Below, in pieces: positions 1,007 through 57,262 of a DNA stretch of 64,000 nt. A program made the position numbers and the translations under genes. Every line of letters starts with the position of its first letter. The stretch's first letter is position 1. Under the pieces are notes generated by a model that made no database searches, had not been told where the DNA came from, and worked only from the letters and a program-made list of their open reading frames with translations. The stretch comes from Prevotella sp. oral taxon 475 (lineage in GTDB: Bacteria > Bacteroidota > Bacteroidia > Bacteroidales > Bacteroidaceae), in the NCBI RefSeq assembly GCF_018127805.1, contig NZ_CP072334.1:1466001-1530000 (forward strand). The letters are read 5' to 3'.

Positions 1007-1264
1007 TGAACAGTTCAGTAGCCCCATTTTGGTCTCCGCGGCCGTTTTGAACAGTTCAGTAGCATCATTTGGGTCTCCGTGACGGTTTTGAACAGTTCAG
1101 TAGCACCATTTTGGTCTCCGCGACGGTTTTGAACAGTTCAGTAGCATCATTTTGGCCTCCGCGGCCGTTTTGAACAGTTCAGTAGCATCATTTTGGTCTC
1201 CGTGACGGTTTTGAACAGTTCAGTAGCACCATTTTGGTCTCCGTGGCCGTTCTGAACAGTTCAG
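1007..1264. repeat. 41-bp tandem repeat array with palindrome TGAACAGTTCA, 7 copies
   Basis: The palindrome TGAAC-A-GTTCA begins at 1007, 1048, 1089, 1130, 1171, 1212 and 1253, exactly every 41 bp. The connecting sequence is about 30 bp, with consensus GTAGCAxCATTTTGG then TCTCCGxGxCGTTT and a few alternating bases (CGCGG or CGTGA). The array fills the gap between two convergent genes and starts eight bases after the upstream stop. The same unit recurs at 32521-32736. Confidence 0.95.
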
Positions 1265-1300
1265 AAAGCTGCGTTGCTCTCCTTCAATCATCAAGAAATA

Positions 1301-1344
1301 AAAAGTGGCCCAATGGAATCAAAACTCCATTGGGCCACTTTTTT
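1301..1344. terminator. Bidirectional intrinsic terminator
   Basis: A 17-bp stem (AAAAGTGGCCCAATGGA and its complement) with a short loop is flanked by T tracts on both strands. It sits between the convergent genes ending at 999 and 1363 and probably serves both. The 41-bp array would therefore be part of the 3' untranslated region of the plus-strand gene. Confidence 0.88.
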
Positions 1345-1362
1345 AAAGAAGAGGGTAGGGGA

Positions 1363-1971
1363 TTACTTCTTCGCCTCAGAGGCTTTTGCAGGTTTGTAGG
1401 CCTTGTTCAGACCGGCAATCACATCGTTGGTGATGTCAAAAGCCTTGTCGGCATAGAGCAGATTGTCGCCTGCCTTACTCAAGATGAGGCTGTAGCGTTT
1501 GTCTTTGTTATACTCGGCCAGGAAGTGGCGGATGCTGTCGCGCAGGGCAGCGTTATAGCGGTCGGTCTCCACCTGGAATTCGTTGGTCAATCGCTGGTTC
1601 AAGGCCTGCAGGTCATTGTTCTGCTTTTGCAGTCCGGCCTGAATCATCTCTGCCTGTTCGCGGGTGTAGGCATTCTGCTGCACCTTTTGCTGGAAGTTGG
1701 CGGCTGCCGTTTGCAGGGCCTGCTGCTTCGAGGCGAGGGTGTTTTGGATGTTCTGCCCCTTCTTCTGAAGGATGAGCGAATAGTCTTTGCAGAATTTGTA
1801 CTGGCTCATGATGGAGTCTACCTCCACGTAGGCTATCTTCATGCTCGTGGGAGCACCCTTGGCTTTTGTGCCCGAAGGGCTCTCGGCCGGCTCGTTCGAC
1901 TTGTTGCAGGCTGTGAACATCAGCACCGTTGCGCCCGATAGGGCCAGCGTTTTAAGAATGTTTTTCTTCAT
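1363..1971 (-). CDS. OmpH/Skp-family lipoprotein-like periplasmic chaperone
   Basis: This 202-residue protein begins with a signal peptide and a lipobox-like FTAC (Cys22). After a linker, residues 43-60 give the strand that opens OmpH/Skp proteins (MKIAYVEVDSI), followed by a long alpha-helical coiled coil rich in Gln, Lys and Ala at about 65-150. Skp-type proteins form trimers that hold unfolded outer-membrane proteins in the periplasm; a lipidated version is inferred here from the Cys. Its start codon overlaps the stop of the upstream small membrane gene by four bases (ATGA), so the two are translationally coupled. It ends at the strong terminator at 1301-1344. Confidence 0.85.
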   Translation of the reverse strand: MKKNILKTLALSGATVLMFTACNKSNEPAESPSGTKAKGAPTSMKIAYVEVDSIMSQYKFCKDYSLILQKKGQNIQNTLASKQQALQTAAANFQQKVQQNAYTREQAEMIQAGLQKQNNDLQALNQRLTNEFQVETDRYNAALRDSIRHFLAEYNKDKRYSLILSKAGDNLLYADKAFDITNDVIAGLNKAYKPAKASEAKK

Positions 1972-2198
1972 TGTTTATTTGATTGTCTTGTTTCGTTTTC
2001 GTGGATGGCTGTTAGGCTCTGTCGCCGTGCCTCTCTGTCCTGATCGATCACACAGCGGATACCTTGCTTTCTGAGTCCAGGGTTGTCGTGAATGTGCTGC
2101 GAAGAGAATTTTCCGTTTTTTCTTAGAATCAGTTTCACACTGAGCAAAGCGATGGCTATAGTAATTATTAACAGCGATAAAGCCAATGTCTCTTTCAT
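1968..2198 (-). CDS. Small single-pass membrane protein, conserved in Bacteroidales
   Basis: This 76-residue protein has one hydrophobic segment (about residues 5-24) followed by a basic, polar tail containing HIHDNPGLRKQGIRCVIDQD. Small proteins with this tail occur in Bacteroidales next to OmpH-like or cell-envelope genes, but I know of no assigned function. The single cysteine and the charged tail would face the cytoplasm or periplasm depending on topology; positive residues after the segment suggest a cytoplasmic tail. It is first in a two-gene operon with the OmpH-like gene (4-bp overlap), driven by a promoter at 2243-2276. Confidence 0.75.
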   Translation of the reverse strand: MKETLALSLLIITIAIALLSVKLILRKNGKFSSQHIHDNPGLRKQGIRCVIDQDREARRQSLTAIHENETRQSNKQ

Positions 2199-2204
2199 TT
2201 TCTA

Positions 2205-2213
2205 TATTTTTGC
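2205..2213 (+). promoter_or_regulatory. -7 element for pepD
   Basis: TATTTTTGC matches TAnnTTTG and would give a leader of about 70 nt before the pepD ATG at 2291. No good -33 element is visible. It overlaps the leader of the divergent operon. Confidence 0.45.
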
Positions 2214-2242
2214 ATTCCGTAAAATGCGCGTTTCAAAACGCT

Positions 2243-2276
2243 GCAAAGGTAACTAATAAATCACGAAATCACCAAA
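2243..2276 (-). promoter_or_regulatory. Promoter of the small membrane protein-OmpH operon
   Basis: On the minus strand TTTGG (2272-2276) is followed after 20 bp by TACCTTTGC (2243-2251). The transcript would start about 40 nt before the ATG at 2198. It lies face to face with the presumed pepD promoter. Confidence 0.65.
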
Positions 2277-2290
2277 CAAAGAAAGTAAAA

Positions 2291-3748
2291 ATGAGTAAAA
2301 GCAACCTGACCCCCAGCTGTGTTTTCGAGCAGTTCAAAAAGATTAATCAGATTCCGCGTCCCTCAAAACACGAGGAAAAGATAGTGGCCTATCTGAAAGA
2401 GTTCGCCCAGCAGCATGCACTCGACGTCAATGTCGATGCCTCTAACAATGTCATCATTCGAAAACCTGCCACACCGGGCTACGAAAATCGAAAGACGGTG
2501 ATCCTGCAAAGCCATACCGATATGGTGTGCGACAAACTCGTCGACATCGAATTCGACTTCTCCAAAGATGCCATCCAAAGTTATGTAGACGGCGATTGGA
2601 TGAAAGCCAAAGGCACCACGCTCGGGGCAGACGACGGCATCGGAGTGGCCATGGAGCTGGCTGTGCTCGAGAGCAACGACATCCAACACGGACCGCTCGA
2701 GTGCGTCTTCACCAGCGACGAAGAAACACAACTCACTGGTGCCTCGGGCATGGAGGCGGGATTCATGACGGGCGACATGCTCATCAATCTCGATTCTGAA
2801 GACGAGGGGCAGATTTTCGTCTCCTGCGCAGGCGGTCGCAGCACGCATGCCGTGTTCCGATTCACCCACGAAGAAGCTCCCGCCGGATATTTCTTCCTCG
2901 AACTCTCTCTCAAAGGACTCACCGGGGGACACTCGGGAGACGACATCAATAAGAAACGTGCCAATGCCATCAAAATTCTTTCGCGCTTCGTCTACGCCGA
3001 ACAAGAGAAGTTCGACCTGCGCCTGGCCAGTTTTAATTCGGGCAAATTGCACAACGCCATCCCGCGCGACGGTCGTGTCGTGATCGCCGTCCCCGACGAA
3101 GTGAAAGAACAAGTACGTGCCGATTGGAACATCTTTGCCGCCGAGGTGGAAGACGAATTCCACGTAACCGACCGCTCAATGGTGTTCGCTATGGAGAGCA
3201 CCGGTGCAGAAAAGGTTCTTCCAAGAGAAACCGGTCGCCGTCTGATTCAGGCTCTTCAAGCTGTCACCAACGGCATCTTCGCTATGTGTCAAGACAAAGC
3301 TCTGGGCGATTTGGTAGAAACATCGAGCAATCTGGCCGTCGTTAAAACCACAGACAACGAGGTAGACATCCTCGCTTCGCAACGTAGCAACGTGATGAGC
3401 AACCTCACCAATCAATGCAATGCCGTGAAAGCCGCCTTCCAATTGGCCGGAGCCGACGTTGAACAAACCGACGGTTATCCTGCCTGGCAAATGAATCCCG
3501 ACAGCCAGCTCACCCGCCTGGCCGTCGATTCCTATCAAAAACTCTTTGGCAAAGAACCCATCGTGCGCGGCATCCACGCTGGTTTAGAGTGCGGATTGTT
3601 CTCCACTCGATATCCGCATCTCGACATGGTATCGTTCGGTCCCACGCTACGCGATGTGCATACGCCCGACGAACGCCTCCTTATTCCTACCGTCCAAATG
3701 GTGTGGGATCATCTCTTGGAGATTCTCAAGAACGTTCCCGTCAAATAG
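2291..3748 (+). CDS. pepD: Aminoacyl-histidine dipeptidase (peptidase D, M20 family)
   Basis: This 485-residue cytosolic metallopeptidase splits Xaa-His dipeptides such as carnosine-like substrates, releasing amino acids from peptides. Visible M20 features are the first metal ligand in SHTDMVCDK (His75, Asp77), the bridging Asp in GADDGIG (114-115) and the catalytic Glu pair in TSDEET (144-145). A lid/dimerisation domain lies in the middle and SFGPTLRDVHTPDE, with the last histidine ligand, is near the C-terminus. Length matches the family (about 485). The reading frame is open from 2186, but the ATG at 2291 gives the family N-terminus. The next gene follows after five bases. Confidence 0.95.
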   Translation: MSKSNLTPSCVFEQFKKINQIPRPSKHEEKIVAYLKEFAQQHALDVNVDASNNVIIRKPATPGYENRKTVILQSHTDMVCDKLVDIEFDFSKDAIQSYVDGDWMKAKGTTLGADDGIGVAMELAVLESNDIQHGPLECVFTSDEETQLTGASGMEAGFMTGDMLINLDSEDEGQIFVSCAGGRSTHAVFRFTHEEAPAGYFFLELSLKGLTGGHSGDDINKKRANAIKILSRFVYAEQEKFDLRLASFNSGKLHNAIPRDGRVVIAVPDEVKEQVRADWNIFAAEVEDEFHVTDRSMVFAMESTGAEKVLPRETGRRLIQALQAVTNGIFAMCQDKALGDLVETSSNLAVVKTTDNEVDILASQRSNVMSNLTNQCNAVKAAFQLAGADVEQTDGYPAWQMNPDSQLTRLAVDSYQKLFGKEPIVRGIHAGLECGLFSTRYPHLDMVSFGPTLRDVHTPDERLLIPTVQMVWDHLLEILKNVPVK

Positions 3749-3753
3749 CAACC

Positions 3754-4149
3754 ATGAAAACGAACCGCAAAATCTTCGTCTTTGCCTGTCTTTCCGCACT
3801 CCTTATCTTAGGATGCGGAAAACAGCACACGGCGAAACAATTGGTTTCCGATTTCATCGAGCAAAACACCACCGTTGTGCCCTCTATCTCTGAAGTCGGT
3901 TCGCTTGATTCCGCACTCTACGTCACGGATGAAGCGATTGTTCGAATGAGGCAGTCTGCTGGAAAGAACGGCATCTTCAAACCCGGAATACGTTACGGCG
4001 AACGTCCCCAAAACACGTCAACGCTGATGATGCTGTCGGTTACTTACACGCTGGAAGGCAGCCAACGCGCACCGAAAGAATATCGACAAACGTTCTATCT
4101 CGACCCCAATCTCACGCGGGTAGTTGCCGTTAAGAGCGACAACCGATAG
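3754..4149 (+). CDS. Small lipoprotein of unknown function
   Basis: This 131-residue protein has a signal peptide (residues 6-20) and a lipobox LILGC with Cys21. The rest is a compact alpha/beta domain with several Thr- and Tyr-rich strands (TLMMLSVTYTLEG, YRQTFYLDP). Such proteins are common in Bacteroidales as unnamed envelope lipoproteins. It begins five bases after the pepD stop, so it is probably co-transcribed, and a clear terminator follows the stop. No function can be assigned. Confidence 0.75.
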   Translation: MKTNRKIFVFACLSALLILGCGKQHTAKQLVSDFIEQNTTVVPSISEVGSLDSALYVTDEAIVRMRQSAGKNGIFKPGIRYGERPQNTSTLMMLSVTYTLEGSQRAPKEYRQTFYLDPNLTRVVAVKSDNR

Positions 4150-4168
4150 AAACGTTCCTCCTCTATGC

Positions 4169-4212
4169 AACATCCCCTGTTCGACACGACCGTCGGACAG
4201 GGGATGTTTTTT
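4169..4212 (+). terminator. Intrinsic terminator after pepD-lipoprotein operon
   Basis: AACATCCCCTGT and its complement flank a loop and are followed by a T run (GTTTTTTG). It lies about 20 bases after the stop at 4149. Confidence 0.85.
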
Positions 4213-4258
4213 GTTTTGGCTCTGCAAAAAGAGATGTAGTTGCAAGGTCAGGGAGAGA

Positions 4259-6568
4259 TTAATTAAAGAAATTCCAACTCAATCCGAAGTAGATCACTCG
4301 GTCGTTCAGCGGATAATGCGGCGTGAGAAAATAGTTCTTCCTTCCGCTTCCGGCATTGACATGACTGGCCATCAAGAAGAATCGCGCCTGCTTGAGTTGG
4401 AAATTGGCATAGACATTCACGATGGGATAGTTGCCGATCTTCGTCAGACTGTTACTTGCCTGAACAGCGAATTGTCCCAACGCCGGACTGTAGTCGGGGG
4501 CATAATAGCTGGTGAAATAACGCAGATCGGCTCCCAAGTCGCATTTCAACACGCGCGCAATCTTAAAGCGCAGATAGAGATTGGTGTAGACATTGAGAGT
4601 GGGAACGGGCAGAACAGCTTCCTTGCTCGACTTCTGCCAGGTCACGATACTTTCCCAATGAATCGGACCGAGGGTAACATCCTGATTCAGTTCAGCCGTG
4701 AGCAGATTGATGGGTGCACCGCTTTGCTCTACCGTCACCGTATTGGCTGTACGCGTAAAATCGTTATTAATGGTGTAACCCTGCGCAAAGTAAGTATAGT
4801 TTTTCAGTTCATCCACAGCAAAACGCAGCGTAGTTCGGGTCTTTTTGTAGTGAAAAATGCCTTGCAGACGCGTGTGAATGATTTTCGAGAGCGCATCGTT
4901 ATCCCACCAAAAGTGACGCGAATGATAATGCCGATAATAGAATGTGGGATTGAGCCGATAGAAGAACGCACTGGCAGCGAGGGTTACCGTGTCGCCGAAA
5001 AGTCGGAAGTTGAGATCGGTCGTACCATCGATTTTCAGCTGCCCGGCATCCTTTCCCACCAGCCATGTTTCGGCCGTCACCCCGTAATGGAATGTTTTTC
5101 CCTGCGTTTTGCTAAGTTGTCCACCGATGCTAATATTGTGTTCGTTGTAGCTTTGAGCTCGAGCCTGCGTATCGGGGAGCATGAAATGGCGCAATTCGCT
5201 GGTCAGAAACGCCTTCAAGCCCGACTTCGCCCACTTGTTAAACCCCTCAAGCAAAGCCAGCGCAACGGTGTTTTTAAGAACGTAGTGCCGTGTTTCGTCG
5301 TAGATAGAATCGCCCGTAAGTCGACCCGCATTATAATAACTATTGGCATAATAGTTGGTTGGCGTTTGGTGTGCCTCGTAGATACGGCGGTAGTTGTCGA
5401 ATTTCAGCGTATGGATAAAACTCGTCACCGGCACATACTCGTTTTTCAACCACGCCGTATCCTCCTTTTCCTTTCTCTGCATAGCCAGCAAACTATCAGC
5501 TGCAGCTTTCCCGTTAACTGCGATACGCTCTCCGCCAGCCGTCCCTTTAGCGGGTTCTGCACCCATAATCTTAGCATTATCGGGCCGGCCGGCAAAGCTT
5601 TTCTCCTCCTGTCGTTCTTTGTTCGAACTTCCTTCGCTGACTTTTCCTCCCCCTTTTCGTCGTTCACGCTCCTGCTGATCCTTCTTTGCCGCGATGGCAA
5701 ACTTACGCGCTTCGATTTCTTCTTTCGTCATAGGCACCTTACGATGGAAGCCAATGTTGTAGCGATGAGAAAAGAAGAGGTGCTGATTGTCGTTGCGATT
5801 CCAGTTTTTTTGCAGCACAGTAGGGATTTCCGACGTGCTGAACGACTCATTGAACGTTTCCGGATGGGTGATATAATTGTCGTTAGTGATGCCCCCATTC
5901 TCGGTTATCTTCTGATGATTGGTAGAGAAAAGCAAGTGTGCCAGATAGCGATCGCCGATGTAAGAGGCGTACATGGTGTAGTTAAAGAGAGCGGTGCTCT
6001 GGTTTTGGTAATATCCCCGCCCATAGTCATAATCAAACTGAAACCCCGCCCCAATGCGTTTGCCGGCGTTAACGCCGAAGTTGGCCTTGAAACGATCCTC
6101 CCCATCGGTCTTGTCGCCGCAGCTATAATAGCTCAGATTGGTAATGGGCGAGAGCGTATTGGTAAACAGAAACCGCTCTACCGGCACAAGAAAAAAGCTG
6201 TAGGGCTGAGTGAAAATGAACTGAGAGCCATCCGTAGGGCGATGGATAAAGACCCGTGCGATGCGCGGTGCCCCCAAATTACCCAGCGAATTATACTCCC
6301 CATATCGCCCCATGGTGAATGTTGTGTTCATAAACAGGTGCGAGAGCGTGTCGGGACTTGCTGCATTTCTGTCGCCAAAGCGTGCATCCACCGTCCACAC
6401 CTTCATCCCCTTAGGAATCTCTTTGTCGGTTCCCAGCGAGTCGGCACCGTTTTTTTGTTTGTCCGATGTAATGTTTCCATCCTCGTTGATCCTGTTCAGT
6501 TCGTTCTGTGCGAAGACGTTTGTCATCGTCAGGAGCAGTGTAGCGAGGAGTATCGATGTTTTTTTCAT
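4259..6568 (-). CDS. Putative outer-membrane porin (PF14121-type), 769 aa
   Basis: A cleavable signal peptide ends at about residue 20 (VFAQ). The mature protein is rich in aromatic residues, Thr and Asn in alternating strands, as expected for an outer-membrane beta-barrel, and ends with a strand finishing in WNFFN. The N-terminal strands (WTVDARFGDR, TTFTMGRYGEYNSLGNLG, PRIARVFIHR) are typical of the Bacteroidetes putative porin family PF14121. A charged low-complexity insert (about 285-330, Lys/Glu/Arg-rich) probably forms a periplasmic turn or extracellular loop. Substrate unknown. It is last in a three-gene unit with 6569-6775 and 6821-7483. A long antisense open frame over it is not a gene. 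Confidence 0.85.
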   Translation of the reverse strand: MKKTSILLATLLLTMTNVFAQNELNRINEDGNITSDKQKNGADSLGTDKEIPKGMKVWTVDARFGDRNAASPDTLSHLFMNTTFTMGRYGEYNSLGNLGAPRIARVFIHRPTDGSQFIFTQPYSFFLVPVERFLFTNTLSPITNLSYYSCGDKTDGEDRFKANFGVNAGKRIGAGFQFDYDYGRGYYQNQSTALFNYTMYASYIGDRYLAHLLFSTNHQKITENGGITNDNYITHPETFNESFSTSEIPTVLQKNWNRNDNQHLFFSHRYNIGFHRKVPMTKEEIEARKFAIAAKKDQQERERRKGGGKVSEGSSNKERQEEKSFAGRPDNAKIMGAEPAKGTAGGERIAVNGKAAADSLLAMQRKEKEDTAWLKNEYVPVTSFIHTLKFDNYRRIYEAHQTPTNYYANSYYNAGRLTGDSIYDETRHYVLKNTVALALLEGFNKWAKSGLKAFLTSELRHFMLPDTQARAQSYNEHNISIGGQLSKTQGKTFHYGVTAETWLVGKDAGQLKIDGTTDLNFRLFGDTVTLAASAFFYRLNPTFYYRHYHSRHFWWDNDALSKIIHTRLQGIFHYKKTRTTLRFAVDELKNYTYFAQGYTINNDFTRTANTVTVEQSGAPINLLTAELNQDVTLGPIHWESIVTWQKSSKEAVLPVPTLNVYTNLYLRFKIARVLKCDLGADLRYFTSYYAPDYSPALGQFAVQASNSLTKIGNYPIVNVYANFQLKQARFFLMASHVNAGSGRKNYFLTPHYPLNDRVIYFGLSWNFFN

Positions 6569-6775
6569 CTATCGTATAAAGCGTAAAATGCACTCCACAA
6601 TCTTGAAAACCATGGCACCCAGCACCACAAAAGTGCCCATTTGCCGGTTGAAGAAGAAGTAGAGACCGACGCCTACGAGTGCGCCGAGAATAAAAATGAG
6701 ATTCAAAACGTTGCGAATAGGGAGAAAACGGTCTTCCTCCCGACGATGTCTCTTTCTGTTAGCCTGATATTCCAT
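6569..6775 (-). CDS. Small two-pass membrane protein of unknown function
   Basis: This 68-residue protein has a basic N-terminus (ANRKRHRREE) and two hydrophobic segments (about 23-40 and 44-60), so both ends are probably cytoplasmic. The frame is open further upstream to 6802, but the ATG at 6775 precedes the basic N-terminus and leaves normal spacing to the upstream gene. Its stop abuts the porin start codon, which suggests coupling. I do not recognise the family. Confidence 0.65.
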   Translation of the reverse strand: MEYQANRKRHRREEDRFLPIRNVLNLIFILGALVGVGLYFFFNRQMGTFVVLGAMVFKIVECILRFIR

Positions 6776-6820
6776 AAAGATATTGATGTAAAGGGGATGC
6801 AAAAAGATCTGTCGCCAGAG

Positions 6821-7483
6821 CTATTTCAGCACCTGCCGACGGATGATGTCGAAGAGCTCCTCTTTGCGATCGAGAGTTTTTCGACGAAATTTCCCCGACA
6901 TACGGTTCAGTTTCGTCTTGCTCTTGTTGAGTGCATATTCGTCGGTAATCCAATTTTCAGCCGTCGTTTCCAATCCATTTTTGCTGCCTCGGTTGGTTTC
7001 GTAAGCATAACTGATACGCGAAAGAGAGAGGTTGAGATGTCCGTCGCTGCATCTGGCAATAAGGGTATAGTTGAAGAGCGTTCTGTCTAAAGAGAGAAAA
7101 GTGCTTTGAAACACGAGCCACTCTTTGAAGCGAGCTGCGATGATATGCTCCCGTCGGTTCACCAAAGCCACATTGCTCTCGGACAATTGGTTCTCAGTTC
7201 GGGTCAGACTGTCCAGCGTCGTGTAAACAAGATCATAGATTTTTTGCGCGTTTTTGCCCGGAACATCGAGATCAAAGTCGAAAATCACCTTGCCCTCTTT
7301 GAGCGGTATGGCCCCTTGAAGATATTTTTTGTCTTCTATCTCTGCCTTTTCCTTACTGTTTTTACCGTCTTTTTCCTTTTGAGTGGATTGCTGTGTGGCG
7401 GGTTGCTGTGGTTTTTCCCAATCGTTCTGCGCCATGGCACAGAACGGCAGAGCAGCCCAGGCAATGAGGAAGAGTATTTTCAT
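6821..7483 (-). CDS. Secreted DUF4468-like protein
   Basis: This 220-residue protein has a signal peptide ending CAMAQ (about residue 19) and a Lys/Glu/Gln-rich linker. It then has a domain starting KVIFDFDLDVPGKNAQKIYD with FNYTLIARCSDGHLNLSLSRISYAYE further on. This arrangement fits the Bacteroidetes DUF4468 family (predicted TBP-like fold), exported but of unknown role. The ATG at 7483 is preferred to one at 7513 because the signal peptide then begins correctly. It is first in the operon leading to the porin, with a -7 element at 7512-7520. Confidence 0.7.
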   Translation of the reverse strand: MKILFLIAWAALPFCAMAQNDWEKPQQPATQQSTQKEKDGKNSKEKAEIEDKKYLQGAIPLKEGKVIFDFDLDVPGKNAQKIYDLVYTTLDSLTRTENQLSESNVALVNRREHIIAARFKEWLVFQSTFLSLDRTLFNYTLIARCSDGHLNLSLSRISYAYETNRGSKNGLETTAENWITDEYALNKSKTKLNRMSGKFRRKTLDRKEELFDIIRRQVLK

Positions 7484-7511
7484 CTGTCGTTCTTTTGAGT
7501 ATATATTTCGC

Positions 7512-7520
7512 ACAAAATTA
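7512..7520 (-). promoter_or_regulatory. -7 element of the DUF4468-porin operon
   Basis: On the minus strand TAATTTTGT lies about 30 bases before the ATG at 7483 and fits TAnnTTTG. A -33 element is not clear. Confidence 0.45.
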
Positions 7521-7753
7521 CGAATTAATGCGATGGCTCGACTTCAATATTCAATATTTAACTATTGTTCGGAGCCGAATTCGCCAGCATCTGTAGGCCA
7601 GGAAAAGCATTTTCGGCCATCGCCAATCGCCGTTTCTCTTCCATCATAAAGTCCTTTATCATAACCTCCTTCAACAGATTTACGCATACTTTATAACACA
7701 CTGAAAAACAGGCTGTTACAAACCATTACTTAAAACCTTAGTTTTTGGCATGC

Positions 7754-7813
7754 AAAAGCTAAGAAAACGCAACCCAAAAGCTAAGAAAACGCAACCCAAA
7801 AGCTAAGAGAACG
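7754..7813. repeat. 22-bp tandem repeat, motif AAAAGCTAAGA, 3 copies
   Basis: AAAAGCTAAGA begins at 7754, 7776 and 7798, exactly 22 bp apart, with the linker AAACGCAACCC in the first two copies. It lies between divergent genes in an otherwise featureless 480-bp stretch (7484-7961). The same motif recurs at 13864-13955 and 41355-41437. Confidence 0.85.
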
Positions 7814-7903
7814 GAAAACCAGCGAGGAGCGATGACAAAATCGACTCTGAACAAAGACCGACAGTGGAGTGGGGCGGTACACCGTTTTTCGAGAGTTTCG
7901 CAC

Positions 7904-7935
7904 TTGCAGATTTCGCCGAAAAGAGGTAGTTTTGC
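7904..7935 (+). promoter_or_regulatory. Promoter of the omega-amidase-like gene
   Basis: TTG at 7904-7906, 20 bp, then TAGTTTTGC at 7927-7935. It lies 26 bp before the ATG at 7962 and argues against in-frame upstream starts, including the ATG at 7938, which would sit at the transcription start. Confidence 0.65.
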
Positions 7936-7961
7936 AAATGTCAATCCATTTGAACAAGAAA

Positions 7962-8723: not shown

Positions 8724-8799
8724 CCTCGGAAGGCTTTTTGGCATGGTGTTTGCTTTGGATAGCATGCAAATCCGCAAATCTTAAACATTATATATTCAT

Positions 8800-10854: not shown

Positions 10855-10870
10855 GGTATATCATCCCATG

Positions 10871-13863: not shown

Positions 13864-13955
13864 CAAAAGCTAAGCTTTTGCACACCGATCTCTTATCTTT
13901 TAGGGTGCATTTTCTTAGCTTTTGGCAGGTCATCTCTTAGCTTTTGGAAAACCAT
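13864..13955. repeat. Degenerate 22-bp repeats with AAAAGCTAAG motif, both orientations
   Basis: The stretch opens with AAAAGCTAAGCTTTT, a palindrome. It continues with reverse-oriented copies TCTTAGCTTTTGG at about 22-bp spacing and a degenerate TCTTATCTTTTAG between them. The same core occurs at 7754-7813 and 41355-41437. It lies between the MazG-like gene and mscL, both on the minus strand. Confidence 0.8.
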
Positions 13956-14052
13956 CTGCGACTTATCCTTCTCAAATATCACTATCAGATCTTAAAAAAG
14001 CACTTGATGAAGAACACCAAGTGCCAATCTACACCTTATTATATAGCGAGAG

Positions 14053-23378: not shown

Positions 23379-23512
23379 AGATATTAAACACTCTTCATCA
23401 AGGGTGTACTACACTCTTCACCAAGGGTGTACTATACTCTTCATTAGGGGTGTACTATACTCTTCATTAGGGGTGTACTATACTCTTCATTAAAGGTGTA
23501 CTATACCATTAT
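23379..23512. repeat. 23-bp tandem repeat array, 5-6 copies
   Basis: GGGTGTACTATACTCTTCAT recurs with exact 23-bp spacing (GGGT ends at 23405, 23428, 23451, 23474, and a GGT at 23497), with more divergent first and last units (ACACTCTTCATCAAG; CTATACCATTATG). It lies in the 400-bp gap between convergent genes (GH57 and pabC). A separate direct repeat CCAATxGGTCATTAG flanks it at about 23323 and 23549. Confidence 0.92.
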
Positions 23513-27579: not shown

Positions 27580-27609
27580 TCTCTCATTGAATCTGCCCCC
27601 GAATGGGCT

Positions 27610-27830
27610 TTCGTAGGGGTACGAAGACCCGTTTCTCCCATTTTCGAGCTTTCGTAGGGGTACGAAGACCTATTCTTCCCATTTTCGAACTTTCGTAGGG
27701 GTACGAAGACCTGTTCTTCCCATTTTCGAGCTTTCGTAGGGGTACGAAGACCTGTTCCTCCCATTTTCGAGCTTTCGTAGGGGTACGAAGACCTGTTCCT
27801 CTCATTTTCGAGCTTTCGTAGGGGTACGAA
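27610..27830. repeat. 41-bp tandem repeat array with palindrome TTCGTA-GGGG-TACGAA, 6 copies
   Basis: The 16-bp palindrome starts at 27610, 27651, 27692, 27733, 27774 and 27815, exactly 41 bp apart. The connector is GACCTGTTCTTCCCATTTTC followed by GAGCT with a few changes (Cs and Ts near the middle). It begins 31 bases after the rnz stop and ends before a terminator at 27851, so it is probably transcribed as the rnz 3' untranslated region. Confidence 0.95.
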
Positions 27831-27850
27831 GCAGAAATCCCGAATCAACC

Positions 27851-29862: not shown

Positions 29863-29989
29863 GGGGAGATGATCTCCCACACATCGGGAAGTCATCTCCC
29901 ACACATCGAGAAGTCACCTCCTGCACACCAGGAAGTCATCTCCTGCATACCAGGAAGTCATCTCCTGCATACCAGGAAGTGATCTCCGG
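29863..29989. repeat. 22-bp tandem repeat array with palindromes, 6 units
   Basis: Units of 22 bp such as GGAAGTCATCTCCTGCATAC follow each other. Each holds an interrupted palindrome: GGGAGA-TGA-TCTCCC in the first, CAGGA...TCCTG in later ones. It begins 44 bases after the transpeptidase stop. The array at 56975-57262 belongs to the same family (GGGAGGTGACCTCCCG). Confidence 0.9.
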
Positions 29990-30027
29990 CAAGTAAAGCA
30001 ATCCATCCTCTCCACAAATTTGACCAT

Positions 30028-32471: not shown

Positions 32472-32520
32472 AATCCTTCGTTTGGGGTCGTCGTTATTTT
32501 TCTTGATGAAAAGATGTCGC

Positions 32521-32985
32521 TGAACAGTTCAGTAGCATCATTTTGGGCTCCGCGGCCGTTCTGAACAGCTCAGTAGCATCATTTTGGCCTCCGCGGCCGT
32601 TTTGAACAGTTCGGTAGCACCATTTTGGTCTCCGCGGCCGTTCTGAACAGTTCAGTAGCACCATTTTGGGCTCCGCGGCCGTTCTGAACAGTTCAGTAGC
32701 ACCATTTTGGTCTCCGCGGCCGTTTTGAACAGTTCAGTAGCCTCATTTTGGCCTCCGCGGCGTTACTGTAGGGTACAGTAGCCTCATTTTGGCCTCCGCG
32801 ACGTCATCGTAGGGTACAATCACGTCATTTTGGTCTCTGATGGCGGTTTTGTAGGGTACAGTGGCCTCATTTTGGCCTCCGCGACGTTATTGTAGGGTAC
32901 AGTAGCACCATTTTTGTCTCCGTGATGGTTTTGTAGGGTACAGTAGCACCATTTCGGTCTCCGCGACGTTACTGTAGGGTACAGT
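32521..32985. repeat. Hybrid 41-bp tandem repeat array, 12 units with two alternative palindromes
   Basis: Six units carry TGAACAGTTCA (starts 32521, 32562, 32603, 32644, 32685, 32726). The next six carry TGTAGGGTACA (32767, 32808, 32850, 32891, 32932, 32973) in the same phase, with one 1-bp slip. The connector (GTAGCAxCATTTTGGxCTCC then GCGGCCGTT or GCGACGTT) is shared by both halves. The right edge is about 7 bp from the ftsH stop. The left half equals the array at 1007-1264. Confidence 0.95.
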
Positions 32986-32991
32986 AACCCG

Positions 32992-43323: not shown

Positions 43324-44346
43324 CTATTCTACAACAACTTGTGTCCAGCCGTGTACATCTTCTTCTATTCCATACTGAATGTTGCGCAAATGATGGTAGA
43401 GTTTTTGAGAGATGGGGCCGGGCTCTCCGTTCTTACTAAACTGGTATCGTGCACCGGTTTCCCAATCGTCGATATAGGAAATCGGACTGATTACTGCTGC
43501 CGTTCCGCAGGCCCCGGCCTCCTCGAAAGTAGCAAGTTCCTCTTCCAGAATGGCGCGTTGCTCCACTCTCAGGCCCATATCTCGGGCCAGTTGCATGAGG
43601 CTTTTGTTGGTGATGCTCGGCAGGATGGACGAAGATTTTGGAGTAATATAAGTGTTATCCTTAATTCCGAAGAAGTTGGCGGCTCCGCATTCATCGATAT
43701 ATTTTTTTTCTTTAGCGTCGAGATAGAATTCACTGGCGTACCCTTTCTCGTGGGCCAGTGCGTTGGCGCGGAACGATGCGGCATAGTTTCCTCCCACTTT
43801 GAACATACCTGTGCCCAAAGGGGCCGACCGATCGTAGTTGCGCACGATGACATACGGATTGGGTGAGAATCCGCCTTTAAAATAAGGGCCGACCGGTGTT
43901 ACGAGAATCAGGAAGAGATATTCGTTTGCTGGACGGACACCTACCTGCGCACTTGTACCGATCATCAGCGGACGGATGTAAAGCGTAGCCCCACTCTCAT
44001 AGGTTGGTACGTATTCTTGATTCAGACGCACCGCTTTGATGACCATTTCTTCAAACCGGTCGTCGGGCAAGGGCGGCATAAGGATTCCACGACAGGTGTC
44101 TTGCAGTCGGCGAGCATTCTCGTCCATTCTGAACACGCGTATCTTTCCGTCAGGACATCGATAGGCTTTCAGCCCCTCGAAGGCCTCTTGGCCATAGTGT
44201 AAACAGGTCGCAGCCATGTGCAACTTGATGTATTCGTCCGAACAAACTTCAATTTCTCCCCACTTTCCGTCACGGTAATAACAACGAACATTATAGTCGG
44301 TGGGGATGTATCCGAAGGATAAGCTGGCCCAATCTAAATTCTTCAT
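43324..44346 (-). CDS. ilvE: Branched-chain amino acid aminotransferase
   Basis: This 340-residue class IV PLP enzyme interconverts branched-chain amino acids and their keto acids. The PLP lysine is Lys183 in MFKVGGNYAAS; HYGQEAFEGLKAYR and TLYIRPLMIG are substrate-side motifs, and GTAAVISPI follows near the cofactor phosphate. It matches the BCAT-II type (about 340) rather than the shorter E. coli type. It has its own promoter (44385-44416). Confidence 0.95.
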   Translation of the reverse strand: MKNLDWASLSFGYIPTDYNVRCYYRDGKWGEIEVCSDEYIKLHMAATCLHYGQEAFEGLKAYRCPDGKIRVFRMDENARRLQDTCRGILMPPLPDDRFEEMVIKAVRLNQEYVPTYESGATLYIRPLMIGTSAQVGVRPANEYLFLILVTPVGPYFKGGFSPNPYVIVRNYDRSAPLGTGMFKVGGNYAASFRANALAHEKGYASEFYLDAKEKKYIDECGAANFFGIKDNTYITPKSSSILPSITNKSLMQLARDMGLRVEQRAILEEELATFEEAGACGTAAVISPISYIDDWETGARYQFSKNGEPGPISQKLYHHLRNIQYGIEEDVHGWTQVVVE

Positions 44347-46006: not shown

Positions 46007-46100
46007 CGATTGATGATTTTTCTGTATCGTGCAAAAATAGCACAAATGAGTATGCGCCCAAAATAATGCAACATTATTTAGTTTTTGGGGATGTGGTCGT

Positions 46101-46321
46101 TTCCCGCGGCGGGGAATCCTTCCCTGGGTGCCAGCGGTCATTTCCCGCCACGGGGAACCCTTCCCTGGGTGCCAGCGGCTATTTCCCGCCGCGGGGAATC
46201 CTTCCCTGGATGCCAACGGCCATTTCCCGCCGCGAGGAACCCTTCCCTGGGTGCCAGCGGTCATTTCCCGCCGCGGGGAACCCTTCCCTGGGCGCCAGCG
46301 GCCATTTCCCGCCGCGGGGAA
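46101..46321. repeat. 41-bp tandem repeat array with palindrome TTCCCGC-C-GCGGGGAA, 6 copies
   Basis: The GC-rich palindrome begins at 46101, 46142, 46183, 46224, 46265 and 46306, exactly 41 bp apart; the connector is CCCTTCCCTGGGTGCCAGCG followed by GCCAT. A few copies have a single change inside the palindrome (CCACGGGG, CCGCGAGG). It lies between the atpG terminator and xseA. Its GC content is far above the surroundings. Confidence 0.95.
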
Positions 46322-46334
46322 CGATCTCATCCAT

Positions 46335-47399: not shown

Positions 47400-47412
47400 A
47401 AGGGAATTCGGA

Positions 47413-48996: not shown

Positions 48997-48997
48997 C

Positions 48998-50059: not shown

Positions 50060-50066
50060 TCATTTT

Positions 50067-50309: not shown

Positions 50310-50354
50310 AATTCTATTATTTATTGTTTTGATTAATTTATTTGCAATATGTAA

Positions 50355-51410: not shown

Positions 51411-51443
51411 TTTTATTCTATCATTAATAGCAAAAGTCCTGTA

Positions 51444-51833
51444 TTACTTACGTTCACATGCAAAAAAGGTTGTATGATGAACGAGGAGCACAACATAGAA
51501 CATAGCAAAGATTAGGAAGAAAAGAAACATCGTATTTCGATCTGCAACAAGATAATAGACAAACATAACACCTATTCCCAACAACATGCGGAATCCCGAT
51601 ACCCCCATAAAAAAAGTAGGCAGGTTCTCGGGTGAACGTTTTGCAATACGCGCCCAAATCATAATATCGATATTCTCCACTATCAATGAAAAGACAGTGC
51701 TAACGATAAGAGGTGTGAGACTATCATTCTGAAACCAAACCTTCATTCCGATAAAAGCAATGAGCGTCAGTCCTGCAATCAACAATATGCTTTGCTTCCT
51801 ATAGTACCAACTCAATTTATCGATATCTGCCAT
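51444..51833 (-). CDS. Small four-helix membrane protein in the atp operon (AtpI/AtpR-like)
   Basis: This 129-residue protein has about four hydrophobic segments (ILLIAGLTLIAFIGMKVW, LIVSTVFSLIVENIDIMIW, MLLGIGVMFVYYLVAD and MFLFFLIFAMFYVVLLV). It lies between atpC and atpB, where other bacteria have AtpI or AtpZ-like helpers for c-ring assembly, but I cannot show homology. It is probably an assembly or stability factor of the ATP synthase; that is inference from position. Confidence 0.75.
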   Translation of the reverse strand: MADIDKLSWYYRKQSILLIAGLTLIAFIGMKVWFQNDSLTPLIVSTVFSLIVENIDIMIWARIAKRSPENLPTFFMGVSGFRMLLGIGVMFVYYLVADRNTMFLFFLIFAMFYVVLLVHHTTFFACERK

Positions 51834-51861
51834 GAATCATTTTATTGTGTCTATAAAGACG

Positions 51862-52104
51862 TTAGACCTCTACACACAAACTCACTTCATTCTTTTGTAC
51901 CTCCACAAATCCCCCTGCAATGTTGATCTCCATCTTACCTTCATTCGGTACAACAAACGTCATCTTACCGGCATTTAATGAAGAAATGATAGGAGCATGA
52001 TTCTCAAGGACCTCAAATTCACCAAGTGTCCCTGGAACAGTAACACTTTCCACGTCACCATCGAAAAGTATCTTTTCAGGAGAGATAACTTTCAGTCTCA
52101 GCAT
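51862..52104 (-). CDS. atpC: ATP synthase F1 epsilon subunit
   Basis: This 80-residue protein holds only the N-terminal beta-sandwich of epsilon: LRLKVISPEKILFDGDVESV, TLGEFEVLENHAPIISSL and MEINIAGGFVEVQKNEVSL. The C-terminal two-helix domain that inhibits ATP hydrolysis in E. coli is absent, so inhibition by that route is not possible. This short form is common in Bacteroidetes. Confidence 0.95.
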   Translation of the reverse strand: MLRLKVISPEKILFDGDVESVTVPGTLGEFEVLENHAPIISSLNAGKMTFVVPNEGKMEINIAGGFVEVQKNEVSLCVEV

Positions 52105-52133
52105 AAGAATGTTCTATTTAGCATATTCTTTTG

Positions 52134-53672
<1,539 letters not shown>

Positions 53673-53705
53673 TTATTTTGTTATCTAATACTTCATCTAT
53701 CTGCG

Positions 53706-53737
53706 GCAAAAGTAAACATAAAAACCGAAAACAACAA
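53706..53737 (-). promoter_or_regulatory. Promoter of the atp operon
   Basis: On the minus strand TTG (53735-53737), 20 bp, then TACTTTTGC (53706-53714), 45 bp before the atpD ATG. Confidence 0.7.
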
Positions 53738-53796
53738 GCTGACTCCCGTTTTTAATCTTAAAAGAGTTAAATGAAGAAGAGGATTAGAGTATTCTT

Positions 53797-54774
53797 TTAA
53801 ATGCTCAATTCGTCGAGAACCGTAATCAGTTTTTTATCGAAAGGTTTGTCGCTGCGGATAGCCTCAATCAGAGGCACGTATACGATTTCGTTGTTTCGAA
53901 TTCCGATCATCACGTTGCGTTGTCCCTGCAAAATGGCATCGATGGCTCCGACACCCGTTCTACTGGCAAGGATTCGATCGTGAGCCGTAGGCCGTCCACC
54001 GCGCTGCAAATGTCCGAGAATAGACACCCGAACGTCATAGTCGGGGAATTCCTTTTTTACCCGATCGGCATAATAAAGCGCACCGCACTTCGGACTTTCC
54101 GAAACAATCACAATACAACTTTTCTTCGACTTGCGAATACCTCGTTCCATAAAGCGCGACAACTGGTCTACATCTGTCGAGTCTTCCGGAATGATGGCTG
54201 CCTCTGCACCGGCAGCGATAGCACTGTTTTGTGCCAGGAAGCCGGCATCGCGCCCCATCACTTCAACAAAAAAGATGCGTTCGTGGCTCTGTGCTGTATC
54301 ACGAATACGGTCTACGCAGTCTACGATGGTATTCATTGTCGTGTCATAGCCAATGGTAGAATCCGTTCCGTACAGGTCATTATCGATAGTTCCGGGCAGA
54401 CCGATGCAGCAGATGTCGTACTCTTCGGCAAACACTTTGGCACCTGTCAGCGAACCGTTTCCGCCAATCACCACCAAGGCATCAATTCCTTCCTTCTGAA
54501 TATTTTCATATGCCTTCTGCTTTCCCTCGTCGGTCATGAAGTCATTGCTCCGTGCGGTTTTCAATATGGTTCCGCCCTGCATGATGATACCGCTCACGTT
54601 CTCAGTGGTGAAAGGTTTTATCTCGCCGTTGATAAGTCCATCGTAGCCTCGATAAATCCCTTTCACATTAAATCCATTACAGATACCTGCGCGGGTCACT
54701 GCTCGTATGGCAGCATTCATGCCTGGGGCATCTCCTCCCGACGTCATCACGCCTATTGTTTTTATTCTTGCCAT
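53797..54774 (-). CDS. pfkA: 6-phosphofructokinase, ATP-dependent type
   Basis: This 325-residue glycolytic enzyme phosphorylates fructose 6-phosphate. GGDAPGMN (13-20), GGNGSLTGA (104-112), [13 protein letters not shown] (127-138) and [13 protein letters not shown] are diagnostic. Gly after Asn in the second motif (position equivalent to E. coli 104) fits ATP rather than pyrophosphate use, since PPi enzymes have Asp there. ATG 54774 gives the family N-terminus [15 protein letters not shown]; an upstream in-frame Met exists at 54819. It follows nhaD by 54 bp. Confidence 0.95.
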
Positions 54775-54828
54775 TTTTATACCGTTTATTAAAAGATGTG
54801 TATCCGCCTGAGGATGCACCTTTTCTGA

Positions 54829-56223
54829 TTATACAATACTCCACAAGAGAGCCATACCGACGATTCCGCCGATCAATGCCCGCCATCCCACATTGCGGAA
54901 ATACCATCCTACGCGCATCCGCTCTGTTCTCAGCAGTGCCAAACCGCTAATAGAGCCTATCGGTAGAATATTTCCACCCGCCATCGACATGAATGCCACT
55001 ACCTTCCAGTAGCTGCCATTCTGTACAAAATAGGCAAGATAGCTGCCGGCAGAGGAGCACAAGCCTTCTCCCTCGACAACTGAATGCATCGAGATGGCAG
55101 TCATCATCGTGGCGAATCCATCCAACACACTACTCGTCACACTGCACATCAGTCCCACGATCCAAATGTTGCCCACTTCTCTATCCACATATACCGATGC
55201 CTGTTGCAACACGCCCGTTTCGCCTACAACGCCCAGTGCCAGCATGATACCCATCACGAAGAGAATCATTTGAAACGAGCCATATTGCAGCACACGGGGG
55301 ATGCGTCGCTGAATCATTTCGTCGGTGTTCATCAATTTGCGATTAAAGATTTCATTGACAACCCACAGAATTGAGAGCACGCAGAGTGCACCGAGGAACG
55401 GGCTGAGCTTGGTGATGTTGTGAAACGTAGGGATGAACCACAATCCGCCGATTCCAACGACAAGCATCAACAGTCGTTGCCACACGTTAAGGTTCGTATC
55501 GTCTCCCCGGTAGGGCAGTCTGCCAAACTCCATCTCAATGCGCTCCGGCATTGTGCGAGCGATGAGCCAAGTAGGCACAACCCACGCTGCCAGGCACGGC
55601 AGAGCCATATGAAGCGAATAGTCGGTAGCCGTGATGGCACCCATATTCCACAGCACCAATCCTTCGGGTGCACCGATCACCGTGAGAGCCCCTCCGCTAT
55701 TGGCTGCCAACACGGCCACGCTTCCGTAGATCATGCGGTATCGACGATTAGGGATGAGGCGATGAATCAGCGTCAGTGTCATCACCGTCGTAGTGAGATT
55801 ATCGAGATTGGCCGAAACAAGAAACACACCCAGGCCCATCAGCCACAACAGACGCCTACTGTTTCTCGTTCGAGCCCATACGCCCAGGAAGTCGAAACAA
55901 CCGTTATTGTTAAGTATCTCAACGATTGTCATCGTAGACAGGAGAAAGAGAACGATCTCTGCCGCCTTTCCCACGTAACGTAGAAAAATATTCCGGGCGA
56001 TAAATTCCTTGACGGCCGAACTGCTGTGCGCACTGCCTTCAAGGAAGTTGAGGTAGGCCGTTTGATGTTGTGTCATCACAAAGTCGGTGCCATACGAAAC
56101 ATAAAGCACCCACCCCACCGTACCCATGAAAATGGCCACGGCTGCCTTATTGACATTGGTCATATTCTCAGTGGCGATGAGAACATACCCAAGAAGTAAT
56201 ATGGCAACAATGATGAGCGTCAT
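54829..56223 (-). CDS. nhaD: NhaD-type sodium:proton antiporter
   Basis: This 464-residue inner-membrane protein has about 12 hydrophobic segments of the ion-transporter superfamily. The NhaD/ArsB-type motifs are IARNIFLRYVGKAAEIVLFL, ENMTNVNKAAVAIF near the N-terminus, SANLDNLTTTVMTLTLIHRL and AVLAANSGGALTVIGAPEGL, the last two forming the ion-binding hairpins. It exports sodium in exchange for protons and complements the sodium-linked transport seen at 30096. The promoter is at 56243-56274. Confidence 0.92.
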   Translation of the reverse strand: MTLIIVAILLLGYVLIATENMTNVNKAAVAIFMGTVGWVLYVSYGTDFVMTQHQTAYLNFLEGSAHSSSAVKEFIARNIFLRYVGKAAEIVLFLLSTMTIVEILNNNGCFDFLGVWARTRNSRRLLWLMGLGVFLVSANLDNLTTTVMTLTLIHRLIPNRRYRMIYGSVAVLAANSGGALTVIGAPEGLVLWNMGAITATDYSLHMALPCLAAWVVPTWLIARTMPERIEMEFGRLPYRGDDTNLNVWQRLLMLVVGIGGLWFIPTFHNITKLSPFLGALCVLSILWVVNEIFNRKLMNTDEMIQRRIPRVLQYGSFQMILFVMGIMLALGVVGETGVLQQASVYVDREVGNIWIVGLMCSVTSSVLDGFATMMTAISMHSVVEGEGLCSSAGSYLAYFVQNGSYWKVVAFMSMAGGNILPIGSISGLALLRTERMRVGWYFRNVGWRALIGGIVGMALLWSIV

Positions 56224-56242
56224 AACGATTGATTAAACTTAG

Positions 56243-56274
56243 GCAAAGGTAACAAATTCCAGGAAACACACAAA
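56243..56274 (-). promoter_or_regulatory. Promoter of nhaD
   Basis: On the minus strand TTTG (56271-56274), 19 bp, then TACCTTTGC (56243-56251), 19 bp before the ATG. Confidence 0.7.
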
Positions 56275-56285
56275 CGGAGCGACTA

Positions 56286-56340
56286 TTTTTTTAAGTCGAC
56301 CTCTCACACCACCGTACGTGCCGTTTAGGCATTACCCCAT
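56286..56340 (-). other. Possible remnant of a group II intron 3' end
   Basis: On the minus strand the sequence contains ATGCC-TAAA-CGGCACGTACGG followed by TGGTGTGAGAGGTCG. GTACGGTGGTGTGAGAGG is a phrase I associate with the domain V region of bacterial group II introns. The 5' half of the expected domain V stem is only partly matched and no reverse-transcriptase frame is present, so at most a fragment remains. It abuts the 66-bp repeat array. Confidence 0.35.
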
Positions 56341-56408
56341 TGATCTTCTCCCGCTATAGGACGGATGAGAGATTTACATCCATTAGAATCAAATACCCCT
56401 CACGCTAA

Positions 56409-56690
56409 CAACCGTATAGCGGTTGCCCCATTGACAATTTATTCAGAACAGATGCCAAACATCCCTCGCACGAACAACCCCAAGGGGGTTAGTCCATTGA
56501 TAACCTATTCAGAACAGATGCCAAACACCTCTCGCACGAACAACCACAAGGGAGTTAGTCCATTGATAGCCTATTCAGAACAGATGCCAAACACCTCTCG
56601 CACTAACAACCCCAAGGGGGTTAATCCATTGATAGCCTATTCAGAACAAATGCCAAATATTCCTCACGCCAACAACCGCGTAGCGGTTGG
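56409..56690. repeat. 66-bp tandem repeat array with covarying hairpins, 5 units
   Basis: Units start with a hairpin at 56409, 56475, 56541, 56607 and 56673 (66 bp apart): CAACCG/CGGTTG, CAACCCC/GGGGTTA, CAACCAC/GGAGTTA, CAACCCC/GGGGTTA and CAACCGC/GCGGTTG. The connector is TCCATTGATAGCCTATTCAG followed by AACAGATGCCAAACACCTCT. The arms change together in the outer versus inner units while the connector stays nearly constant. Confidence 0.9.
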
Positions 56691-56957
56691 TCTGTTGGTA
56701 GAGCAGGGTTGGCGAGTGAAACGAGCCTACCCTGTCTACGACGTGCAAAGAGAAAACAAGGCCGTAGGTCTTGGTCTATTTAAATCTCTTAAGTTAGGGA
56801 GGGTGGAAGGGCATTTTAGCATTCTGAATTAGAGGAATGATCAATTAAAACAGACCAACCCCGTTGGGGTTGTTATGGGTGGGGGCCGCTTAAACAGGGT
56901 AGGCTCGTTTCACTCGCCAACCCTGCTCTACCAACGGACCAACCCCCTTGGGGTTGT
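56671..56957. repeat. Large inverted repeat, arms of about 64 bp, loop of about 158 bp
   Basis: The left arm (56671-56735) and right arm (56894-56957) are complementary over GTTGGTAGAGCAGGGTTGGC and GAGTGAAACGAGCCTACCCT without mismatch. Each arm starts with a small hairpin, CAACCGCGTAGCGGTTG on the left and the CAACCCC/GGGGTTG type on the right, so the hairpin differs while the flank is identical. A third copy of the hairpin flank lies at 56851-56877. Confidence 0.88.
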
Positions 56958-56974
56958 TTATGCACAGTGTTCCC

Positions 56975-57262
56975 AATAGGTGGTAGATACGATTTTAATG
57001 CATGGCAGATGACCTCCTGATGCACGGCAAACATAAATCCAAAGCATAGCAGTTACGATTCCAATACATAACAAATGATTTTCTTATGCATGGCAGATGG
57101 TCTACCAATGTATGACAAATGCTATTTCGATATATGGCAAATGACCTCACGATTCATGGCAGATGATTTCCCAATATGCAGGAGATGACCTCCTGATGCG
57201 CGGGAGGTGACCTCCCGATACGCAAGAGGTGACCTCCCGATATGCGGGAAGTCACCTCTGCT
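56975..57262. repeat. 22-bp tandem repeat array, about 13 units, decaying with distance from the gene
   Basis: Units of 22 bp can be aligned from about 56975. Those nearest the fimbrillin stop are close copies with perfect palindromes (CGGGAGG-TGA-CCTCCCG at 57204, AGAGGTGACCTC next), while those further away are degenerate (ATGGCAGATGACCTCCTG, ATAACAAATGATTTTCTT, AGCAGTTACGATTCC). The family is the same as at 29863-29989. Confidence 0.88.

Follow-up and report, generated by a model that had tools for sequence, protein, structure and literature searches.

Tandem arrays of short repeats lie between genes across the window studied here, a stretch of 64,000 bp at positions 1,466,001-1,530,000 of the single 2.56 Mb contig of Prevotella sp. 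oral taxon 475. The host is a member of the Prevotellaceae whose closest named relative, judged by its GH57 protein, was Hoylesella loescheii (88% identity, own-species records possibly having been left out). Tandem Repeats Finder (TRF) detected all nine arrays claimed for the window by the original prediction, at or near the places it had given (Table 1), and the exact periods of 22 and 41 bp that it had described as common to unrelated sequences were borne out in 864 kb of the genome and by distances between identical 8-mers. The 22-bp period was shared among relatives whose arrays have unrelated sequences, which suggests that spacing, and not sequence, is what is kept.

Table 1. Repeat arrays of the window, with window coordinates.
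Feature	Position	Strand	Composition
41-bp array	1007..1264	+	palindrome TGAACAGTTCA + spacer S1 (CATTTTGGTCTCCGCGG); palindrome at both ends
22-bp lattice, core AAAGCTAAG (dispersed family)	7753..7813	+	
22-bp lattice, core AAAGCTAAG	13913..13957	-	2 units
23-bp array	23390..23506	no strand	ACTCTTCATTAAGGGTGTACTAT
41-bp array	27607..27831	no strand	palindrome TTCGTAGGGGTACGAA + 25-bp spacer; palindromes at both ends
22-bp array	29872..29991	no strand	consensus ATCTCCTGCACACCAGGAAGTC, TCCTG...CAGGA dyad
41-bp array	32520..32986	+	spacer S1; palindrome switches mid-array from TGAACAGTTCA to TGTAGGGTACA
41-bp array	46100..46322	no strand	palindrome TTTCCCGCCGCGGGGAA + spacer S3 (TTCCCTGGGTGCCAGCGG)
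66-bp array (56440-56657)	56409..56680	no strand	bordered by AACAACCGCGTAGCGGTTGGTCTGTT-type hairpins; outside 22/41 classes
22-bp array	about 56975..57258	no strand	GGGAGGTGACCTCCC-type dyads; units of the first half strongly diverged

The arrays at 1007 and 32520 proved to be one sequence family (S1), contrary to the claim that the palindromes of the four 41-bp arrays differ completely, and the change of palindrome at 32520 occurs within the same spacer. The 46100 array sits in a stretch by which the xseA reading frame is extended upstream and whose sequence is not codon-like, and at 56975 TRF scored just 57169-57258, the remainder being degenerate. Apart from one tRNA, no known RNA family reached its gathering score in the window, and the 27607 array had no convincing match in the ten genomes behind named loci (best E 0.31).

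Array periods in the genome, its relatives and controls

Periods of 18-60 bp were counted in a sample of the genome consisting of 40 systematic 20-kb stretches and the window (864 kb, about one third of the genome), with noncoding status assigned from codon-scored gene calls. Among the 132 noncoding arrays, 76 had a period of 22 bp and 33 a period of 41 bp, with a further 6 at 23, 2 at 42 and 2 at 21 bp. A smooth range of periods, the outcome that the original prediction had named as counting against it, was not seen in this third of the genome, where periods peaked at 22 and 41 bp. The predicted intergenic location also held, as none of the 35 arrays of 41/42 bp and only one of the 83 arrays of 22/23 bp lay inside genes. 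Distances between identical 8-mers in noncoding DNA, a check that requires no repeat finder, peaked at 41 (2843), 82 (2146), 22 (799) and 44 bp (429), relative to a median of 9.

The relatives' sample comprised 2.27 Mb, drawn from 79 GH57 loci in Prevotella and its kin and from parts of additional genomes; locus L095 was dropped as a duplicate of L092, L151-L152 were left out of later pooled sets because two of the genomes (one of them P. vespertina) had first contigs of equal length, and L226-L229 (H. pleuritidis, contigs under 700 bases) were left out of counts. Here 81 of 159 arrays had a period of 22 bp, 19 of 21 bp, 13 of 23 bp, 3 of 40 bp and 5 of 41/42 bp, and the sequences at 22 bp were unrelated. 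Most of the scarce 41/42-bp arrays came from Segatella maculosa (e.g. TTTCCAACCCCTTGGAAA plus 24 bp). Two small control sets gave one array at 22 bp and two at 23 bp out of four in other Bacteroidales families (273 kb, 20 genomes) and one at 22 bp out of five elsewhere in the phylum (364 kb, 8 genomes), with none at 41/42 bp in either. By 8-mer distance, 22 bp ranked first, followed by 44 bp, in H. loescheii, P. vespertina, H. buccalis and the remaining relatives; the leaders in S. maculosa were 22, 41 and 44 bp, and 22 bp was weak in P. lacticifex (35, rank nine). In the two control sets 22 bp reached 5 and 20 and did not lead (leaders 16 and 68).

At the GH57 loci of relatives (L031-L110), the first 900 nt downstream were richer in arrays of 21-44 bp (2.2 vs 0.47 per 10 kb), and the gap after the GH57 gene held an array in 9 of 79 loci (of which 74 had 700 nt or more downstream). 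The proposal that this is an orthologous gap holding different arrays was dropped because gap length and the strand and length of the next gene vary among loci. Three long S. maculosa arrays of 87-174 bp (L204:9579-10113, L206:11876-12075 and L209:15866-16266) share a GGACGCACGG-CTCGTGCGTCC-like hairpin.

Architecture of the arrays

The 41-bp unit typically consists of a 16-17 bp palindrome, often of the form TTC...GAA, and a 24-25 bp spacer of one of a few types (S1, CATTTTGGTCTCCGCGG; S2, AAAAATGAGAAAAAC; S3, TTCCCTGGGTGCCAGCGG), palindrome and spacer modules being mixed between loci. When assessed by shuffling, 16 of the 35 consensus units of 41/42 bp in the genome were palindromic at P < 0.05. 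The interiors of TTC-N10/11-GAA windows in arrays (48 distinct, which are not independent events because close variants are among them) paired at 0.63, compared to 0.34 when right arms were re-dealt (maximum 0.45 in 2000) and 0.26 for the 721 such windows elsewhere. Arm changes on both sides remained paired in 23 of 26 cells from 25 arrays, in line with the predicted behaviour of palindromes that change yet stay palindromic, which was seen in this class and in about two fifths of the relatives' 22/23-bp arrays.

The ends of 41-bp arrays fell 5-15 bp from a palindrome centre in 25 of 45 cases on the left and 28 of 45 on the right, with about 11 expected (Rayleigh P = 0.0017 and 4.5e-5, respectively), although better conservation of the palindrome may draw fitted ends toward it. 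Inspection by eye of the 60-nt flanks of 42 arrays revealed no common terminal repeats and no leader or tail, and BLAST of the flanks 31-150 nt out returned 16 similar rows that were confined to three groups comprising 9 of 45 arrays, the flanks being mostly unique. Spacers recurred within and between arrays and were thus not the unique spacers of clustered regularly interspaced short palindromic repeats (CRISPR; cas genes were not searched for).

The S1 family had 66 BLAST matches in its own genome, of which the two shortest were dropped and the other 64 grouped into 39 clusters. An S1 array query gave no match at E 1e-5 in 298 other genomes of the genus (131 of the 299 searched being at least 90% complete) and none in 50 genomes from the rest of the phylum. 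A phage or plasmid origin of S1 was rejected after no match was found among phage or plasmid records, and so was a strand preference with replication, as 15-17 of the 39 clusters were on the leading strand. Beside S3 arrays, two loci (L125 and L126) carry terminator-like hairpins with TCTGAACTGTTCAGA-type stems, which resemble the S1 palindrome.

The commonest 22-bp family of the genome is built on the core AAAGCTAAG, and its units are individually non-palindromic. Exact matches to AAAGCTAAGA numbered 171 in the 864 kb, just 2 of them within genes. The 9-mer core occurred at 232 sites that formed 299 pairs within 100 bp, and all 299 were separated by 22n bp, or 22n ± 4 bp if inverted: same-strand distances were exclusively 22, 44 and 66 bp, and inverted distances were exclusively 26/48/70 and 18/40/62 bp. 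Identity at variable positions was 0.40 for adjacent units (45 pairs, one of which was identical) and 0.42 for units of different arrays. Since neighbours were no more alike than units of different arrays, lacking the excess likeness that marks slippage minisatellites, recent tandem copying did not make this family. The comparison was confined to this family because the relatives' arrays come from TRF, which favours similar copies. A further, purine-rich 22-bp family (TAAGGAGTAAAGAGAGAAGGAG-like) was observed at L111, L114, L147 and other loci, several times adjoining AAAGCTAAG arrays.

Lattices in relatives were assessed with motifs picked from the arrays themselves and pairs within 70 bp. 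For TGGAAC in H. loescheii, same-strand distances were exclusively 22/44/66 bp and inverted distances exclusively 9/31/53 and 13/35/57 bp, and for AAACGG in P. lacticifex they were 22/44/66 bp and, inverted, 7/29/51 and 15/37/59 bp, with 4 exceptions among 61 pairs. Distances of TGGAAC in S. maculosa were mostly multiples of 11 bp, with some of 23/46/69 bp and few others, and TTATACA in this species showed an offset of 11; the H. buccalis motifs, with 10 and 9 hits, yielded too few pairs for a judgement. A half-site rule of 11 bp held for both S. maculosa motifs and failed in H. loescheii and P. lacticifex. The corresponding lattice for 22-bp dyads, in which loop and linker would be equal, was rejected as a mild trend only (difference of at most 2 in 27 of 42, compared to 19.3 expected).

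Palindromic units at P < 0.05 were found in 42 of 97 relatives' arrays of 22/23 bp and in 8 of 81 of the genome's own, and for other periods in 5 of 25 own arrays, 3 of 58 from GH57 loci and 2 of 8 from the genus sample. The original description of all arrays as palindrome-bearing was not supported, the main 22-bp family here having non-palindromic units. Among the palindromic arrays of 22/23 bp in relatives, 21 had enough copies for comparison of the arms with the rest of the unit: arms were off consensus at 6.5%, compared to 17.2% for the rest (P = 4e-12), and changes on both sides remained paired in 5 of 6 cells.

The 66-bp array, which had been placed in the same series, has hairpins of another kind. 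Two Y1 transposase genes resembling repetitive extragenic palindrome (REP)-associated tyrosine transposases (RAYT) scored above the Pfam cut-off, at 44270 and 1098172, and both loci (L188 and L189) are flanked by AACAACCGCGTAGCGGTTGGTCTGTT-type hairpin repeats, as is the 66-bp array of the window; at one of the two loci another 66-bp array adjoins the gene. Because its hairpins are shared with the flanks of Y1 genes, the 66-bp array is REP/RAYT-like and separate from the 22- and 41-bp classes.

Position along the origin-terminus axis

Cumulative GC skew was lowest at about position 0 and highest at about 1.47-1.53 Mb, and 4 of 4 16S genes read away from position 0; this position is thus probably close to the origin, and the window close to the terminus. 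The dnaA gene, at 1.80 Mb, does not mark this skew-placed origin.

Relative to the four quarters of distance from the origin (220, 200, 200 and 244 kb sampled), 41/42-bp arrays increased from 1 to 7, 12 and 15, which 0 of 5000 permutations matched, and their mean distance from the origin was 894 kb, compared to 630 ± 63 under the null. All subfamilies leaned to the terminus (S1, 12 arrays, P = 0.007; S2, 7 arrays, P = 0.0006; S3, 6 arrays, P = 0.08; others, 10 arrays, P = 0.05), and the 39 S1 clusters counted genome-wide were distributed 3, 6, 16 and 14 (P = 0.0002). The 22-bp core arrays of this same genome had the opposite slope (20, 13, 6 and 8; P = 0.005). Together, all 22/23-bp arrays numbered 33, 18, 12 and 20 per quarter (P = 0.015), and the 36 that remained without the core family showed no slope (P = 0.34).

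Candidate explanations for the fixed spacing

Our best, though tentative, reading is that the arrays are spacing-constrained sites for DNA-binding proteins. They would be regularly spaced sites, either palindromes or oriented half-sites, whose centres stay 22 or 41 bp apart, with the sequence between them freer to change than the sites themselves. Such sites may be occupied by proteins (probably dimeric) in contact with those bound next to them, in which case these contacts would fix the spacing through protein geometry. Protein and site would coevolve and turn over between species, and the two classes, by marking different parts of the chromosome, might serve to organise the nucleoid. By computation, spacing is fixed, sites are species-specific, arms diverge less than the rest of the unit and arrays are intergenic; the 22-bp core family in particular bears no signature of recent duplication, and its pattern is what spacing-constrained sites look like, not recent tandem duplication.

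Several observations weigh against protein sites. At P < 0.05, 55 of 97 relatives' arrays of 22/23 bp and 73 of 81 of the genome's own were non-palindromic. When all 47 relatives' arrays of 21-23 bp were taken together, changes on both sides remained paired in just 5 of 15 cells, and the contrast between arms and the rest was also present in this mixed set (ratio 1.9), where the choice of arms may partly inflate it. Nor are the 26 covariation cells of the 41-bp class independent events. Palindromes vary within one genome, so that no single sequence-specific protein can account for the 41-bp class, and 41 bp does not correspond to an integral number of turns of the helix. S1 units resembled each other more within arrays (0.84) than across arrays (0.76), as in slippage minisatellites, which indicates that local copying acts in S1. 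An excess of GU over AC mismatches on the transcribed strand of same-direction gaps (30 vs 16, P = 0.054) leans toward RNA. The gradient comes from one genome, and repeats may just be better tolerated near the terminus, although a general effect of that kind leaves the reverse gradient of the 22-bp core family unaccounted for.

Helical phasing was rejected as a sole cause because 22 and 41 bp are not both whole turns under one helical repeat. The strict placement on one face of the DNA that was originally proposed was not supported for 41 bp, and phasing is inexact in general: 22, 41 and 66 bp correspond to 2.10, 3.90 and 6.29 turns at 10.5 bp per turn.

A close rival, if somewhat unlikely, is that the arrays are instead selfish repeats, akin to REPs and bacterial interspersed mosaic elements (BIMEs) or to minisatellites within miniature inverted-repeat transposable elements (MITEs), in which an enzyme that recognises palindromes would both copy and insert units of a set length, and selection by the host would restrict them to intergenic gaps, particularly in the terminus half. 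Like REP/BIME elements with their RAYT (Y1) enzymes, the arrays are palindromic, extragenic, clustered and present in both orientations, the 66-bp array of the window being itself a REP-type array, and they are dispersed, of high copy number and species-specific (as the S1 searches indicated). For the 41-bp class, its palindrome-bounded ends, mixing of modules and local similarity are fitted almost as well by REP- or MITE-like copying as by protein sites. The genome has its two Y1 transposases, with 22-bp arrays within each 3.3 kb locus, but the repeats directly beside the genes are the REP/66-bp family and 41-bp arrays occur in neither locus; REP/BIME elements also differ in lacking the fixed lattice of the 22/41 classes. 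Copying by such an enzyme would also explain neither the reverse gradient of the 22-bp core family nor its rigid lattice without a signature of duplication.

A precedent for selfish repeats exists in Porphyromonas gingivalis: tandem repeats of 41, 23 and 22 nt have been reported for strain W83, and the MITEs PgRS/MITE464 (41-nt repeats) and BrickBuilt (23-nt repeats) for the species (PMC4596501). The similarity to Porphyromonas repeats suggested in the original prediction stands at the level of lengths. Compared by description, these elements resemble the present arrays in unit length (a tandem core of 23 or 41 nt), multiple copies and intergenic location. As described in PMC4596501, however, they have IS5-like terminal repeats and a leader and tail or repetitive flanks, whereas the 41-bp arrays have mostly unique flanks, ends that tend to be palindromes and, in the 42 arrays inspected by eye and the 45 compared by BLAST, no terminal inverted repeats or conserved leader and tail, likeness of flanks being confined to the nine arrays mentioned above.

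RNA hairpins are an improbable explanation, in which transcription of upstream genes would run on into the arrays and these would stabilise 3' ends or serve as processing or termination elements. Covariation of the arms and the excess of GU mismatches would be expected of such hairpins (the GU to AC ratio was 25:22 in convergent gaps, and same-direction gaps had 28 other mismatches), and in 7 of 8 same-direction gaps the S2 spacer has the orientation of the gene. Avoidance of divergent gaps by 41-bp arrays was rejected as not significant (3 of 44 vs 26 of 162 in the background, P = 0.15), and no location or GU test among these reached P < 0.05 in favour of RNA; the genome's non-palindromic arrays of 21-23 bp were, if anything, more frequent in divergent gaps (21 of 76 vs 25 of 161, P = 0.03). 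Moreover, an RNA function needs no exact spacing of 22 or 41 bp, and of the 42 palindromic units of 22/23 bp, 20 leave 0-2 nt unpaired at the scored axis, so that an RNA loop could form only if pairs opened. Least probable are ordinary minisatellites arising by replication slippage with palindromes aiding misalignment, which the likeness of S1 units within arrays and the intergenic location would suit, but which give no reason for exactly 22 and 41 bp in unrelated sequences and species and do not explain random spacers combined with rigid core spacing.

The observation behind the original prediction was thus confirmed and its interpretation partly supported: there were signs of a cause acting at the level of the class, as its common mechanism implied, but the copying process that it had offered as one form of this mechanism did not suit the 22-bp core family. 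The 22-bp and 41-bp classes may have different causes.

Returning to protein sites, paired operators of the ARG box/ArgR type consist of palindromes of about 18 bp that are about 3 bp apart, giving a centre spacing of about 21 bp; they are single operators, not dispersed arrays. Concentration of sites toward the terminus is also seen for matS, the target of MatP in the Ter macrodomain of E. coli, which as described in PMC3330122 is one 13-bp sequence present in 23 copies over 800 kb, whereas the arrays here contain many different palindromes. An extension of the protein-site reading, which we regard as rather unlikely, is that Prevotellaceae and perhaps other Bacteroidales have a chromosome-wide nucleoprotein code in which the spacing (22 or 41 bp) would be conserved as the site sequence turns over, the two spacings would mark opposite ends of the origin-terminus axis, and the components would be unrelated in sequence to MatP/matS or SlmA/Noc. 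Among open-access papers, none of the matches listed described a rule of fixed spacing across Prevotellaceae or the gradients, and we know of no chromosome-organising system in this phylum.

The usual mark of a repeat family is a common sequence, but in these arrays it is an exact spacing that unrelated sequences of several species have in common. With the sites constrained in sequence and the stretches between them less so, the purpose of the 22/23/41-nt repeats of Bacteroidales becomes directly testable, and the origin-terminus gradients, if they hold in other species, would point to a chromosome-organising system in this phylum. Outside the arrays, the window also contains a perfect (TG)25.5 run at 60696-60746, a possible phase-variable tract.

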